Source: Candidatus Peribacteria bacterium | GTDB taxonomy: Bacteria; Patescibacteriota; Gracilibacteria; UBA1369; UBA12463 | Direction: 5' to 3' | Length of the DNA: 64,000 nt | Assembly: GCA_943354965.1 (NCBI GenBank) | Contig: CALRDN010000008.1 | Span: forward strand, 1-64,000 | In this document: in pieces, positions 1-63,507 of the stretch | Numbering within the stretch: position 1 is the first letter of the stretch | Layout: every line of letters starts with the position of its first letter | Position numbers and translations under genes: made by a program | The notes under the pieces: model-generated | What the model was told of the DNA's origin: nothing | Database searches by the model: none | Seen by the model: the letters and a program-made list of their open reading frames with translations, nothing else

Positions 1-85
1 CGCGTTCTCCGTCGCTGCTTTTTTGAATAACGGTTGGCACGAGCATATCCGTGATTCTTTGGAATCGGTGATCAAGTAACGTCAT
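1..85 (-). CDS. clpP: ClpP protease subunit, N-terminal fragment cut by the window edge
   Basis: Reading leftward from the ATG at 46-44 gives MLVPTVIQKSSDGER and then runs off the window. This matches the very conserved start of ClpP, the serine peptidase ring of the Clp protease (typically LVPTVIE.T..GER). An in-frame ATG at 85-83 would add 13 residues (MTLLDHRFQRITD); ClpP proteins often start near the internal Met, but I cannot decide between them. The catalytic Ser-His-Asp residues lie outside the window. Neither start has a Shine-Dalgarno sequence. The opposite strand is also open over this stretch but gives no recognisable protein. Confidence 0.65.
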   Translation of the reverse strand, partial: MTLLDHRFQRITDMLVPTVIQKSSDGER

Positions 86-151
86 ATAAAGAGTGGGGTT
101 AGAGGAGAGGTGAAAAATATTGTTTTTCTTCTCCTATTGTATCACCCTTCT

Positions 152-775
152 TTATTCCTGAAAAAGTATTCTTCCTAATCGAACCATTGTTGCTCCTTCT
201 TCTATGGCGATGAGATAGTCATCACTCATTCCCATGGATAATCTCGACATAGGATTTTTGAATTCGTTTTCTAATTTATCTCGCTGCATTCGAAGCCCCT
301 TATATATGTAGCGACTATTTCCGTTCTTGGATGGGATGACCATGAGTCCCTCGATTTCAAGATTTGGAAATTCTTTTCTATTTTTTAGTATCTCGCGTAC
401 CTCATCCATAGATAGTCCATGTTCTTTTTTCTCATCGGCGTTGATTTGGAGGAGGATCTTTTGCTTCTTCTTCATTTCAGCCGCGGCATCATTAATCTTC
501 TTCGCGAGTCCCAATGAGTCCACGCTATGTATGAGCTCTATAGGATAGGAGAGGAGGAGGTGAACCTTGTTCCTCTGAAGGTGTCCTATGAAGTGATGTC
601 TTACATTTGTAAGATCTTTCAAATCCGGATAGAGATCTCGGAGGTGCTGAACAGTGCTCCAGCCCAAATTTCGGACTCCATTTTCCAAAAGAATCTTTAT
701 TTTCTTTATGGAATGTCCCTTTACAGCGGCAACCAAGGTAACGTTTTTTGCTATATTTAAGCTTTGGATGTTCAT
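152..775 (-). CDS. yggS: YggS/PLPBP family pyridoxal-phosphate homeostasis protein
   Basis: The 207-residue product is a single-domain PLP-binding TIM barrel of the YggS/YBL036c family, which binds PLP and buffers vitamin B6 without known enzymatic activity. The sequence shows VAAVKG with the PLP-binding Lys at residue 19, then HFIGHLQRNK, the HSVDSL strand, a QIN-type strand, GLMVIP, and a C-terminal LSMGMSDD...A...GATMVRLG phosphate-binding segment. It is slightly shorter than the usual 220-235 residues, lost at the N-terminus. A possible -10 (TATACT, 792-787) lies 11 nt before the ATG; GGGGAAG is only a weak SD-like match. It runs toward clpP. Confidence 0.9.
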   Translation of the reverse strand: MNIQSLNIAKNVTLVAAVKGHSIKKIKILLENGVRNLGWSTVQHLRDLYPDLKDLTNVRHHFIGHLQRNKVHLLLSYPIELIHSVDSLGLAKKINDAAAEMKKKQKILLQINADEKKEHGLSMDEVREILKNRKEFPNLEIEGLMVIPSKNGNSRYIYKGLRMQRDKLENEFKNPMSRLSMGMSDDYLIAIEEGATMVRLGRILFQE

Positions 776-821
776 ATTTCTTCCCCAGTATACCCTATTT
801 CATCAACTTTGAAAAATGTCC

Positions 822-850
822 TTGACTCGGCAGACTTCTTTAAATACAAT
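822..850 (+). promoter_or_regulatory. 16S rRNA promoter (TTGACT-N17-TACAAT)
   Basis: A -35 hexamer TTGACT (822-827) and a -10 hexamer TACAAT (845-850) are separated by exactly 17 bp, about 165 bp before the mature 16S. A boxA-like TGCTCTT follows at about 854-860, as in antiterminated rRNA leaders. Confidence 0.75.
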
Positions 851-902
851 ACCCCTGCTCTTGAAGCTTATTTGGCTTTAAGGAGCGCACATTTTTTTCT
901 TC

Positions 903-944
903 GCGTCCTTTAACATTCAGAATGTAGTAGAGAAGCTAGGTAAC
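903..944 (+). other. 5' arm of the 16S precursor processing stem
   Basis: This segment is nearly perfectly complementary to 2557-2596 beyond the 3' end of 16S. The core TTAACATTC..AATGTAGTAGAGAA pairs with TTCTCTACTACATT..GAATGTTAA, extended by GCGTC/GACGC. Long leader-trailer stems of this sort are RNase III-type processing sites of pre-16S RNA. The 3' arm lies before tRNA-Ala, so the tRNA is outside the 16S loop. Confidence 0.85.
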
Positions 945-1017
945 AAAGTTTTTTTGTTTTTCACAAAAATATAAACTCTGAACTACTTTATTGAAGTTCC
1001 GAGTATAAACTAATGTT

Positions 1018-2477
<1,460 letters not shown>

Positions 2478-59099: not shown

Positions 59100-59876
59100 T
59101 TATTTCTGGAGTATTTGTATTGGAAATACTACTACCGCATTCCAGATACGTTTCCAGCGTTTTGGCTCTTTTATGAGTCTGTAGAGCCATTCTAGGCCGA
59201 GGTTTTGGAGGAAGAGAGGAGCGCGCTTGATGGTGCCGGAGATGTAATTGAATGTACCGCCTACACCGATGGCTACTTTTATAGTTGGCATTTTGTGAAG
59301 GTTGCGGGAGATCCATTTTTCTTGAGCGGGAGCTCCATAGGCGACAAAAAGAATATCAGGATTAGTTTCATTGATGAGATCTTTTATTTTTTCTTCTTCA
59401 TAAGGCGATGTGGAGCCGCTGTATGTTCCGACGATAGTAATGTCCGGGAATTGTTTCTCTAGTTGGAGTTTTGTTCGTTCGGCGACTCCTGGTTGTGCAC
59501 CTAAGAGAAATATTTTTGTACCATTTTTGGCTGCGTGTTCTGCTATATCGAGCATGAGATCGGAGCCTTTTATGAGTTCCGGTAGAGGAGTCATTGGTTT
59601 TTTGAAGAGTAGTTTGAGGAGCTTGAGGGTGGAAATAATTTTGGAGTCGTTTTGTGTATTGGCGGCCCAGAGTAGTCCTGTTCCGTCGGCGGTATTGATA
59701 GAAGATTTGTTCAGAATGTTCATAAAATCCTTGTCGTTCTGCGCGGCAAGAACCATTTCCGGGTTTACCGTGATGATGTGTGATTGTTTTTCTGTAGTGC
59801 TAAAAATGAGATCTAATACTTGTGATTTTGTGAGTACATCCACTGGTACGCCCATGATGGTTATCCTTTTTTGCAT
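59100..59876 (-). CDS. WecG/TagA/CpsF family glycosyltransferase
   Basis: 258 residues. GT26 fold: MGVPVDVLTKSQVLDL, TVNPEMVLAAQ, TADGTGLLWA (catalytic Asp), FLLGAQPGVAERTKLQLE, NPDILFVAYGAPAQEKWI and GVGGTFNYISG near the C-terminus. It adds ManNAc-type or other sugars to a lipid-linked intermediate. Its start overlaps the end of the methyltransferase gene by 16 nt on the same strand. Confidence 0.92.
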   Translation of the reverse strand: MQKRITIMGVPVDVLTKSQVLDLIFSTTEKQSHIITVNPEMVLAAQNDKDFMNILNKSSINTADGTGLLWAANTQNDSKIISTLKLLKLLFKKPMTPLPELIKGSDLMLDIAEHAAKNGTKIFLLGAQPGVAERTKLQLEKQFPDITIVGTYSGSTSPYEEEKIKDLINETNPDILFVAYGAPAQEKWISRNLHKMPTIKVAIGVGGTFNYISGTIKRAPLFLQNLGLEWLYRLIKEPKRWKRIWNAVVVFPIQILQK

Positions 59877-60526
59877 ATGACGATAATATTATGGTGCGAA
59901 GTAAATATTTTTTCTATAGTAAGTTTTTTGGCTACTAGTCTGCGTAATTCGTTTTTAGTGAATGCGTGATAGTAACGTTCGAGTTTATTATTCCATCCAA
60001 TGAATAGGTCATTCCAGTCATGTGGGCCGCCGAGGATTTTGGAGAGGATTGCTTTTAGTATTGATGAGATATACTTTTTTTGCCAGAGATTCCAGACGGA
60101 GATGATGATTGTTCCGTTAGGTTTTGTAATGCGGATAAGTTCATTTATGGCTTTTTCTCGTAGTTCTCTTGAAGGGATGTGAGGAAGAGTTGCTATGCAA
60201 AAGGTTACGTTGACTGAGTTGGGTGGTAGGGGAATATCGAGGAGTGATCCTTCGGTAAATGTTTTGGATGGATGAAGTTTCTTGGCTTCTGATAGGAGAT
60301 TTTTACTGATGTCGATTCCTGTATAGGTCATATCCTTAGGAAGACTTTCAATTAAACGGCCGTTGCCACAGCCTATGTCGGCTATTGTGGCTTGAGGAGG
60401 AATTGCGCTTTTGAAGGTCTCGAACTCTGGCCAGGGTGCTTTGCGGGTTTGGGAAAACTCAGAAGCGATTGTGTCGTAATCCAGCTTTACTTTTTCTAAA
60501 ATTTGTCGGGCAATTTCTGATTTCAT
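59861..60526 (-). CDS. Trm9/ALKBH8-like SAM-dependent methyltransferase (candidate tRNA wobble-uridine carboxymethyl methylase)
   Basis: 221 residues. The N-terminus YDTIASEFSQTRKAPWP (17-33) closely matches the Trm9 signature YNEIAPHFSQTRYKPWP, then SAM motif I ADIGCGNGR (49-57), TGIDIS, CIATLPHIPSRELREKAINEL, IIISVWN, and YYHAFTKNEL near the C-terminus, all at Trm9-like positions. Yeast Trm9 and the human ALKBH8 methyltransferase domain esterify cm5U34 to mcm5U34 in tRNA. The gene is divergent from elp3, which makes cm5U, with 20 bp between starts. No Trm112-like activator is seen. Enzyme activity is inferred. Confidence 0.75.
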   Translation of the reverse strand: MKSEIARQILEKVKLDYDTIASEFSQTRKAPWPEFETFKSAIPPQATIADIGCGNGRLIESLPKDMTYTGIDISKNLLSEAKKLHPSKTFTEGSLLDIPLPPNSVNVTFCIATLPHIPSRELREKAINELIRITKPNGTIIISVWNLWQKKYISSILKAILSKILGGPHDWNDLFIGWNNKLERYYHAFTKNELRRLVAKKLTIEKIFTSHHNIIVICKKG

Positions 60527-60530
60527 ATGG

Positions 60531-60536
60531 TAGAAT
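60531..60536 (+). promoter_or_regulatory. -10 box of elp3 in the 20-bp divergent gap
   Basis: TAGAAT ends 10 nt before the elp3 ATG. Its -35 region would lie inside the methyltransferase gene; none is clear. The methyltransferase promoter must in turn lie in or upstream of elp3 codon 1, so regulation is shared. Confidence 0.4.
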
Positions 60537-60546
60537 GGGCTTCGCC

Positions 60547-62148
60547 ATGCATCAAATACCCATAAATCATACCCTGAAGGAGTTGGTCAGACAAGCGCTG
60601 AAATCGCCAGTGAAGGACCAAACAACTTTGCAACAATTAAAGAATCTTTATTCGTCGAAGCATAAAGTTTCTACTCCGACGAACATGGAGCTGATTGAGG
60701 CGTACCGACATATGATCACAGACAAAGAGATTGTCGAGGACAGGGAGTTCATGAAATTCTTGAGAAAGAGGGGAGTTCGATCGATGTCGGGAATTGTTTC
60801 TATTACGGTTATCACGAAAGCCTTCCCTTGCCCTGGAAAGTGCATTTTCTGCCCTACGGAGCCTGGAATGCCAAAGAGTTATCTTTCGAATGAGCCCGCG
60901 ATTATGAGGGCCATCCTGAACGATTTTGGAGCATATAGACAAACGGTGAATCGTATCGATAGTTTGAAACGAACCGGTCATGAAACGGACAAGGTGGAAA
61001 TTATTGTTTCCGGTGGAACATTTTCTTTTTATCCGCATGCCTATCAAACGGCTTTTACGAGACAGATTTTTAATGCTTTGAATTTTCCATTGAAGCCCGC
61101 ACGGAGTTTGCTGAAGGCACAACAGCTTAATGAAAAAGCAGAAAATAGATGTGTCGGTTTGTCTTTTGAGACGCGACCGGATCACATAACGGAGTTAGAA
61201 GTGAAACGCCTCGCTACGCTCGGCGCCACTAAAATCGAGATCGGTATTCAGTGTCTGGACGACGAGATTTACGCCCTCAACCAACGGGGCCATACGATCG
61301 CCGATGTGGCCAGATGCATGCAGCTCCTGAAGGATGGTTGTTTCAAAGTTAACGCCCACATGATGCCAAATCTCTATGGTTCCACGCCTGAGCGTGACTT
61401 CGAAATGACGAAGGAGTTGTTTGATAATCCCGCCTTCCGACCTGACTGGATGAAGATCTATCCAACGATGGTTGTTCCATGGTCCGTATTAGAAAAAATG
61501 CACAAACGTGGCGAGTTTAAGGCGTACTCTGATGAGGTGCTCATCGACCTGATGTGTAAAATCAAACCGCTTATTCCTGAATACGTCCGCGTAACGAGAC
61601 TTTACCGCGATATTCCCGCACCAACGATCGTTGACGGTTCCAAGATTTCTAACTTGCGCCAGGTGGTTCAGGAGGAGATGAAGCGACGAGGACTCCCGTC
61701 ATGTCGATGTATCCGATGTCGCGAGGTGAGAGATACTGTGGTTGACCCGAAGGACCTGCGCATGCGCGTGACCGAGTACGACGCCTCGAACGGAAAAGAA
61801 TTCTTCATTCAGTGGGAAGATCCGGTATCTGATAAAATTTGCGCGTTTATCAGACTTAGATTTCCATCGCAGTATTTCACTGGCAAGAAACATTTCATCA
61901 AAGAGCTTCAAGATTGCGCACTGATTCGCGAACTCCACGTCTATGGCATGCAGATCCCGCTCAACGATAGGGAAGAGGGCTCGCAGCAGCACTTTGGCCT
62001 GGGCAAGACGCTTCTTCTCAAGGCCGAGGAGATTTCCCGAGCCGCCGGATTCAATAAAATGGCTATTATCAGCGGTGTTGGAGTGCGTGAATACTACCGC
62101 AAAACAGGTTACCAGCTGGATGGGACGTATATGGTGAAGGGGATTTAG
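60547..62148 (+). CDS. elp3: Elp3-type tRNA uridine(34) 5-carboxymethylaminomethyl/5-carboxymethyl synthase (radical SAM-GNAT)
   Basis: 533 residues. Radical SAM domain with CX3CX2C (Cys95, Cys99, Cys102) in FPCPGKCIFCPTEPGMP, GGTFSFYP, GLSFETRPDHI, EIGIQCLDDEIYALNQRGHT, NAHMMPNLYGSTPE. A zinc-like cluster SCRCIRCREV follows, then a GNAT domain (about 461-533: RELHVYGMQIPL, QHFGLGKTLLLKAEEI, ISGVGVREYYRKTGY). Elp3 uses acetyl-CoA and SAM to make cm5U34; in eukaryotes it acts inside Elongator, while bacterial and archaeal Elp3 act alone. It is uncommon in bacteria outside a few lineages. Divergent from the Trm9-like gene. Confidence 0.95.
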   Translation: MHQIPINHTLKELVRQALKSPVKDQTTLQQLKNLYSSKHKVSTPTNMELIEAYRHMITDKEIVEDREFMKFLRKRGVRSMSGIVSITVITKAFPCPGKCIFCPTEPGMPKSYLSNEPAIMRAILNDFGAYRQTVNRIDSLKRTGHETDKVEIIVSGGTFSFYPHAYQTAFTRQIFNALNFPLKPARSLLKAQQLNEKAENRCVGLSFETRPDHITELEVKRLATLGATKIEIGIQCLDDEIYALNQRGHTIADVARCMQLLKDGCFKVNAHMMPNLYGSTPERDFEMTKELFDNPAFRPDWMKIYPTMVVPWSVLEKMHKRGEFKAYSDEVLIDLMCKIKPLIPEYVRVTRLYRDIPAPTIVDGSKISNLRQVVQEEMKRRGLPSCRCIRCREVRDTVVDPKDLRMRVTEYDASNGKEFFIQWEDPVSDKICAFIRLRFPSQYFTGKKHFIKELQDCALIRELHVYGMQIPLNDREEGSQQHFGLGKTLLLKAEEISRAAGFNKMAIISGVGVREYYRKTGYQLDGTYMVKGI

Positions 62149-62475: not shown

Positions 62476-63507
62476 ATGTTACGCATCCAAACACCTCAAC
62501 TTCTTTTGGAAGATAGCCTCCTGGGCGTCGCGGTGTCGAATGAAGATATTCGTACAGTTCTTGAGGTTGAGAATGTTGTTCCTCGTGTTAGGGAGAGTGT
62601 TTTTTATGCGGCAGATTCAATTCCTAATGAATATGTCCGGATTGTTAATCCTATGCGCAGAAGGGTCGCCGATATTCTTAAGGAAATGGGTTTTTTAGTT
62701 TATACTCAAGAGCAAAAAAGTACGACTCATTCCGGAACTTGGAAACCTCTTACTGATCTTGGACTTTCTGCTAAACATACAAAAGGGTTTATGCCTAAAC
62801 GCTTTGATGTTCCCGAGCATCCTAATTTGGTGCCAGAAAGAATTTTTCCTCTTTATGATATTCATGGGCGAAATCTTCCAGAGACGCTTACGGTAGCTCC
62901 TTCTCATCACGGCATCCTAACTCTCGCTGAAGTTGCAAATAGTCTTTCTGTGCGACATAGATTGAAGGTATTGCTTGATGCGCTTCGTGGCAGTAATGCA
63001 GCCCTTTTCCCTCAATCTATTCATCATTCTGATGTTAAGCCTGCGAATGTATTCGTTACCGAGACGACTAATGGAGTGTCGGGAAAACTTTTTGACTTTG
63101 AAGGTGCTGGTATTCATGGGGTTAAGTCGGATCTTTATAGCCCCTCTGCATACTTCGGCAAGCACACTACCCGTTTACATGTCGGACATGATGTATTTTC
63201 CTATGGCATCTCAATTCTTGAAATTCTGAGTAATGATGATGCTGTTATAAGCTTTTATAATTCATGGCAGAAAAGAAGGGGAGTTGTTGATCGTTTTGCT
63301 CCCCCCGCTACCTCTTCTTCGCAAATGCTTGAGTTGTACTCTCGCGGTTTTTCTCACTTACTTCATGATTTTTGCCAAAGAAACGCGATTCCTAAGGCGG
63401 TTGAAGTTATAATTCTTAAGATGGTTAATCCTCGGTTTGGTGATATTATTGATGTTTCTTCTATTATTCGTAGAATTGAGTCTGCTTATCAACTTAAGAA
63501 GTTGTAG
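62476..63507 (+). CDS. Protein kinase-like protein with degenerate N-lobe
   Basis: 343 residues. The C-lobe carries a clear kinase catalytic core: SIHHSDVKPANVFVTE (HxDxKPxN) and KLFDFEGAG in place of DFG, then DVFSYGISILEIL like the APE/helix F-region. The first 140 residues lack a recognisable glycine-rich loop or VAIK Lys, so ATP binding is uncertain and the protein may be atypical or a pseudokinase. It is cytosolic, without membrane helix. Not Hanks-type by length; eukaryote-like kinases in CPR are few. Confidence 0.65.
   Translation: MLRIQTPQLLLEDSLLGVAVSNEDIRTVLEVENVVPRVRESVFYAADSIPNEYVRIVNPMRRRVADILKEMGFLVYTQEQKSTTHSGTWKPLTDLGLSAKHTKGFMPKRFDVPEHPNLVPERIFPLYDIHGRNLPETLTVAPSHHGILTLAEVANSLSVRHRLKVLLDALRGSNAALFPQSIHHSDVKPANVFVTETTNGVSGKLFDFEGAGIHGVKSDLYSPSAYFGKHTTRLHVGHDVFSYGISILEILSNDDAVISFYNSWQKRRGVVDRFAPPATSSSQMLELYSRGFSHLLHDFCQRNAIPKAVEVIILKMVNPRFGDIIDVSSIIRRIESAYQLKKL

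Follow-up and report, generated by a model that had tools for sequence, protein, structure and literature searches.

Elp3 and a Trm9-like methyltransferase are encoded side by side, on opposite strands, in the window analyzed here: 64,000 nucleotides that make up most of contig CALRDN010000008.1 in an assembly (GCA_943354965.1) of a Candidatus Peribacteria bacterium (class Gracilibacteria). The two proteins most likely provide a two-enzyme, Trm112-free route to 5-methoxycarbonylmethyluridine at tRNA position 34 (mcm5U34), or to its 2-thiolated form (mcm5s2U34) where MnmA acts, in place of the MnmE/MnmG pathway. From homology, we infer both reactions, the tRNA substrates, and the independence from a partner protein. 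The original prediction, made from the bare sequence, had proposed such a pathway for this locus; our results support it in substance and point to a system broader than one genome. The pair is widespread in Patescibacteria, or candidate phyla radiation (CPR), and is not particular to the source genome, which spans 1.16 Mb in 23 contigs and is rated 100% complete. One named relative, with 90% identity, belongs to Candidatus Peribacteria and those ranking after it are mostly Peregrinibacteria, which places the host in the CPR. At the scale of the phylum, it seems reasonably likely that about one-quarter of the sampled genomes, and nearly all of the class, replaced MnmE/MnmG by this two-protein route from Elp3 to mcm5U without Trm112.

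Identity of Elp3 and of the divergent methyltransferase

The protein predicted to be Elp3 scores 547.5 bits on TIGR01211 (cutoff, 350), covering profile positions 2 to 521 of 522, and its PDB matches are exclusively Elp3 proteins, with E values as low as 1.7e-120. The radical S-adenosylmethionine (SAM) cysteines C95, C99, and C102 (CPGKCIFC) are kept in 55 of 56 aligned Elp3 sequences, the remaining one having a gap. K150, K266, Q461, and Y517 have been described as acetyl coenzyme A (acetyl-CoA) site and trigger residues of MinElp3 (PMC6367351). At the acetyl-CoA site of the window protein, K149, K267, H464, and Y516 correspond to MinElp3 K150, K266, H463, and Y517, whereas E462 replaces Q461, as it does in Elp3 of Dehalococcoides mccartyi (DmcElp3). 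The catalytic residues are kept in 54 to 56 of the 56 aligned sequences, the window protein among them, and the full N-terminal extension is present. The gene is a complete elp3, whose product is predicted by homology to form 5-carboxymethyluridine (cm5U) at position 34 of tRNA. As a side observation, some CPR Elp3 proteins have their radical SAM domain interrupted, at roughly equivalent points, by a whole additional domain, with the frame open throughout: a haloacid dehalogenase (HAD)-type hydrolase (PF13419) in genome G135 and a DUF559 domain (PF04480) in G093. Loci with inserted domains are L214 (173-2704, minus strand) and L215 (141-2366, plus strand), with L221 also listed; Elp3 of G308 has insertions without any Pfam match.

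The divergent methyltransferase exhibits the motifs YDTIASEFSQTRKAPWP (residues 17 to 33), DIGCGNG (residues 50 to 56), and ERYYHAFTKNEL (residues 183 to 194), and both open reading frames, their motifs, and their positions 20 bp apart are as first described. The protein (METHYLTRANSFERASE) matches generic class I methyltransferase models, as any such enzyme would, and reaches the cutoff of no curated specific family in NCBIfam (UbiE, UbiG, and BioC among them; the top score is 48.7 bits, with a cutoff of 155). A UbiE/MenG identity was rejected, since the window methyltransferase scores 42.8 bits against a cutoff of 158; 30 members of its family match that model at E values no better than 1e-21. 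The Trm9/ALKBH8-like assignment put forward earlier was recovered in three ways. Yarrowia Trm9 (5cm2_Z) ranks first in the PDB in a single-sequence phmmer search (E = 1.8e-12; runner-up, 7.8e-7), Trm9 is again first with a 30-member profile (E = 7.7e-27; second, 2.2e-20), and Foldseek of the AlphaFold model (predicted local distance difference test score, 96.7) places it at rank 1 of 350,542 PDB chains (E = 6.3e-16). By sequence, profile, and fold, Trm9 is the closest solved relative.

Mutation of R29, H115, R241, Y243, or N271 in yeast Trm9 strongly cuts activity or tRNA binding (PMC5372719). We took five residues (R29, H115/116, R241, Y243, and N271) from this review and aligned the window protein to a yeast Trm9 sequence in which all five named positions show the expected letters. 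Each has a counterpart in the bacterial enzyme, i.e., R28, P115-H116, R184, Y186, and N213. Among relatives of the methyltransferase, the R28 column holds R in 80/80, the H116 column H in 78/80, the R184 column R in 79/80, the Y186 column Y in 67/80, and the N213 column N in 75/80 and D in 5/80. As a negative control, 16 other Patescibacteria methyltransferase loci with a weak match to the family profile were aligned identically; none of these carries the five-residue set, and the R28 signature is absent there. Yeast Trm9 itself scores 120.7 bits on the bacterial family profile, more than every control methyltransferase (42 to 111 bits).

Conservation of the pair and absence of MnmE, MnmG, and Trm112

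Within the class, the methyltransferase gene lies no more than 3.5 kb from elp3 in 80 of the 127 genomes in which it was located, and the two genes are divergent in 80/80 (the neighborhood table has 128 rows for these 127 genomes, G052 being counted twice). At 58 of 80 named loci, which include Portnoy-, Nealson-, Campbell-, Buchanan-, and Komeilibacteria, elp3 is immediately upstream on the opposite strand. We then surveyed an even sample of 287 Patescibacteria genomes, gene absences here and below being judged by profile searches. Both genes occur in 77 genomes, Elp3 only in 29, the methyltransferase only in 1, and neither in 180 (Fisher P = 3.7e-44, a value that ignores kinship). The pair is adjacent in 70 of the 77 genomes with both genes and divergent in all 70. 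This recurrence in 80/127 class and 70/77 phylum genomes argues that the divergent arrangement, whose conservation across CPR genomes had been put forward for survey, is not due to chance. The lone methyltransferase-only genome, G209, encodes a protein without R29 (KPWHRYSN versus TRWHRYYN), which is therefore probably a different methyltransferase. Family f19 is a cleaner test of co-occurrence than the kinship-blind P value: both genes are missing from 11 of its 12 genomes, and the remaining one, G388, has both, adjacent to each other. The 20-bp gap between the start codons had been taken to suggest joint function and co-regulation. Co-occurrence and adjacency with Elp3 support joint function; as a sign of co-regulation the gap counts for little, and a promoter scan of it revealed no promoter-like site exceeding the shuffle expectation. 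Outside the phylum, relatives of the methyltransferase were seen in records labelled Nitrospirota, Omnitrophota, and Ignavibacteriales (L149, L150, and L160), with elp3 adjacent in L149 and L160; transfer or misbinned contigs could explain these records.

MnmE and MnmG are used by most bacteria (PMC7663514, PMC13315578), and their absence had been proposed as a check of the predicted pathway. No MnmG exceeded the cutoff in profile searches of 148 class genomes, including the source genome, and the same holds for MnmE, class matches to which span the G domain only. The sole weak MnmG match in the source genome is a CBS/CorC-like membrane protein, and the protein matching MnmE there is Der, with two GTPase domains, so that both candidates were rejected. 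MnmG was found in 6 of the 287 Patescibacteria genomes, all six without Elp3 and without the methyltransferase. Separately, approximately 60% of the 287 genomes have neither Elp3 nor MnmG, and much of the phylum therefore seems to lack both known routes of C5 modification at U34.

The original prediction had seen no Trm112 homologue, and the whole source genome has indeed no PF03966 match; Trm112 is absent from 98 of the 99 genomes searched, with one weak match in the remaining one, whereas archaeal and bacterial control genomes were detected. Because Trm112 was searched for and not found, we refer to the enzyme as Trm9-like rather than as a Trm112-dependent Trm9. MnmA exceeds its cutoff in 39 of 40 genomes and is present in the source genome, as are tRNA-Arg(UCU), tRNA-Gly(UCC), and tRNA-Glu(UUC), which are mcm5U targets in yeast.

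Predicted route to mcm5U34 and competing explanations

In the proposed pathway, a lone Elp3, with no other Elongator subunits, would use SAM and acetyl-CoA to place a carboxymethyl group at C5 of U34, giving cm5U. The Trm9-like enzyme, without Trm112, would then move a methyl group from SAM onto the carboxylate to yield mcm5U, and MnmA, whose gene lies outside this locus, would introduce the 2-thio group into Glu (and Lys/Gln) tRNAs to produce mcm5s2U. This route would stand in for the MnmE/MnmG enzymes missing in these bacteria.

Several observations weigh against this assignment. Eukaryotic Trm9 requires Trm112 (PMC5372719), yet Trm112 is absent here. The window protein has little overall similarity in sequence to Trm9 (23% identity in the Foldseek alignment), and P115 occupies the position of yeast H115, with H116 retained. 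tRNA-Lys(UUU) and tRNA-Gln(UUG) were not recognized among the 37 tRNA matches of the source genome. Further, 29 of the 287 Patescibacteria genomes carry Elp3 without the Trm9-like methyltransferase; in some of these, the pathway may thus end with cm5U or a different derivative. Finally, the methyltransferase gene adjoins that of a GT26 glycosyltransferase, and six genomes have the two fused, as weighed below. Two side observations touch these points: tRNA-Tyr is likewise unrecognized among the same 37 matches, in a genome rated complete, and the unrecognized tRNA genes may be interrupted, those for Lys(UUU) and Gln(UUG) by introns unless they are located in gaps; the Elp3-only genomes also lack MnmG, e.g., G164, G182, and G214 (family f50) and G159, G212, and G237 (family f45).

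The GT26 association raises the question of whether the methyltransferase serves the downstream WecG/TagA-type enzyme in a glycan or glycolipid pathway, its adjacency to elp3 being incidental. In most class loci, the methyltransferase gene has GT26 downstream in the same orientation, no more than about 130 bp away and often overlapping; counted over all informative loci, GT26 follows in 88 of 131. The fusions (L082 [29-1540, minus strand], L216, L217, L218, L219, and L220) come from three families and have the methyltransferase domain first and GT26 second, in open frames of 488 to 575 amino acids (aa) common to both domain matches. Nonetheless, the Trm9 residues persist even in these fusions, except Y243 in two. 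GT26 is near universal in the class (134/148 genomes) and is retained without Elp3 and the methyltransferase in 7/7 f19 genomes tested, while elp3 stays adjacent to the methyltransferase without GT26 in L130, L141, L155, L164, L165, and other lineages, and families f22 and f28 have GT26 on a separate contig. Because GT26 persists where elp3 and the methyltransferase are absent, the methyltransferase follows Elp3, not GT26. With its loss tracking Elp3 in this way, a role in glycan synthesis is quite unlikely, and the association with GT26 seems to reflect local gene order.

A wobble-uridine methyltransferase could also make a product other than mcm5U, either a different ester or amide precursor derived from cm5U or a modification of the uridine 5-oxyacetic acid (cmo5U) type, as for CmoM. 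Bacteria do have class I enzymes that form a methyl ester on a U34 carboxylate, namely CmoM, which acts on cmo5U. Moreover, cm5U derivatives branch, as yeast trm9 mutants accumulate 5-carbamoylmethyluridine (ncm5U) (PMC3110198). Against such a product, which we regard as unlikely, stand the strict co-occurrence and adjacency with Elp3, the maker of cm5U, and no CmoM model appears among the NCBIfam matches listed (CmoA and CmoB were not searched for). A UbiE/MenG-like or other housekeeping methyltransferase, unrelated to the pathway and merely a conserved neighbor of elp3, would account for the weak matches to generic methyltransferase Pfam and UbiE models. Yet the window protein falls far short of every curated cutoff, conservation extends to Trm9-specific residues beyond the SAM core, the methyltransferase and Elp3 are jointly absent in f19, and no bona fide member occurs without Elp3 in the 287 genomes, all of which makes this explanation highly improbable.

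Relation to known systems and layout of the locus

The predicted Elp3/Trm9-like route shares with the mcm5U34 pathway of yeast and animals (Elongator, with Elp3, plus Trm9-Trm112 or ALKBH8-TRMT112) both catalytic proteins, their order of action, and the Trm9 active-site residues, and MnmA-type 2-thiolation could complete mcm5s2U in the bacterial version. It differs in a single-subunit Elp3 (other Elongator subunits are not expected, and were not searched for), in the lack of Trm112, in genes that lie side by side in a bacterial host, and in thiolation by MnmA rather than Ncs6/Urm1. An Elp3/Trm9 system has been predicted in the archaea Haloferax volcanii and Sulfolobus solfataricus (PMC2584109, PMC5372719). 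Like the bacterial pair, it combines a lone Elp3 with a Trm9 homologue, the genes being clustered in S. solfataricus; unlike the pair, it has Trm112 and Tuc1/NcsA-type thiolation, and clustering is reported for one archaeon, whereas the divergent pair is fixed across a bacterial phylum. Among bacteria, Elp3 has been reported in one anaerobic clade, Dehalococcoides (PMC7663514), and, with no detail, in "numerous bacteria" by a 2026 paper (PMC13315578). DmcElp3 is, as the window Elp3, a bacterial stand-alone protein with CX3CX2C spacing and E at the MinElp3 Q461 position. Its activity is very weak, which was attributed partly to its short N terminus (PMC7663514); the window Elp3, in contrast, has the full extension and a methyltransferase partner. 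The bacterial MnmE/MnmG pathway (with MnmC or MnmL/MnmM), which yields 5-carboxymethylaminomethyluridine (cmnm5U) or 5-methylaminomethyluridine (mnm5U), targets C5 of the same nucleotide, U34, presumably with the same decoding role, but involves different enzymes and chemistry, and both MnmE and MnmG are absent from the source genome.

Bacterial homologues of Trm112-dependent methyltransferases have been reported as undetectable (PMC5372719), a lack that the phylum-wide Elp3 and Trm9-like pair overturns. If the proposed route is real, bacteria would gain their first mcm5U pathway, which would also be the smallest one known from any organism. Consistently with the claim of an undescribed bacterial system, a literature search returned the archaeal predictions (PMC2584109) and none for bacteria; this novelty is provisional, because the search covered few subscription papers. 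If the pair works as proposed, CPR tRNA should contain a specific nucleoside accessible to mass spectrometry. The pair would further offer a two-protein, partner-free model for a reaction that needs the Elongator complex and Trm112 in eukaryotes, and it bears on the origin of the eukaryotic pathway.

Table 1. Features of the elp3-methyltransferase locus (window coordinates)
Feature	Coordinates	Strand	Details
Trm9-like methyltransferase gene, predicted cm5U34-to-mcm5U34 methyl esterification	59861..60526	-	221 aa, ATG start
elp3, predicted radical SAM + GNAT tRNA uridine-34 carboxymethylating enzyme	60547..62148	+	533 aa, ATG start
20-bp gap separating both divergent start codons	60527..60546	.	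sequence
N-terminal signature YDTIASEFSQTRKAPWP, methyltransferase residues 17-33	60428..60478	-	R28, counterpart of yeast Trm9 R29
Methyltransferase H116	60179..60181	-	alignment; counterpart of yeast Trm9 H115/H116
Methyltransferase R184-Y185-Y186	59969..59977	-	alignment; counterpart of yeast Trm9 R241-Y242-Y243
Methyltransferase N213	59888..59890	-	alignment; counterpart of yeast Trm9 N271
GT26 glycosyltransferase WecG/TagA/CpsF, neighbor, probably outside the pathway	59100..59876	-	PF03808, 188 bits

In the window, the start of the GT26 gene overlaps the 3′ end of the methyltransferase gene by 16 bp. Downstream of elp3, positions 62476-63507 (plus strand) encode a 343-aa protein with a weak, below-cutoff protein kinase-like match (PF00069; E = 5e-5).

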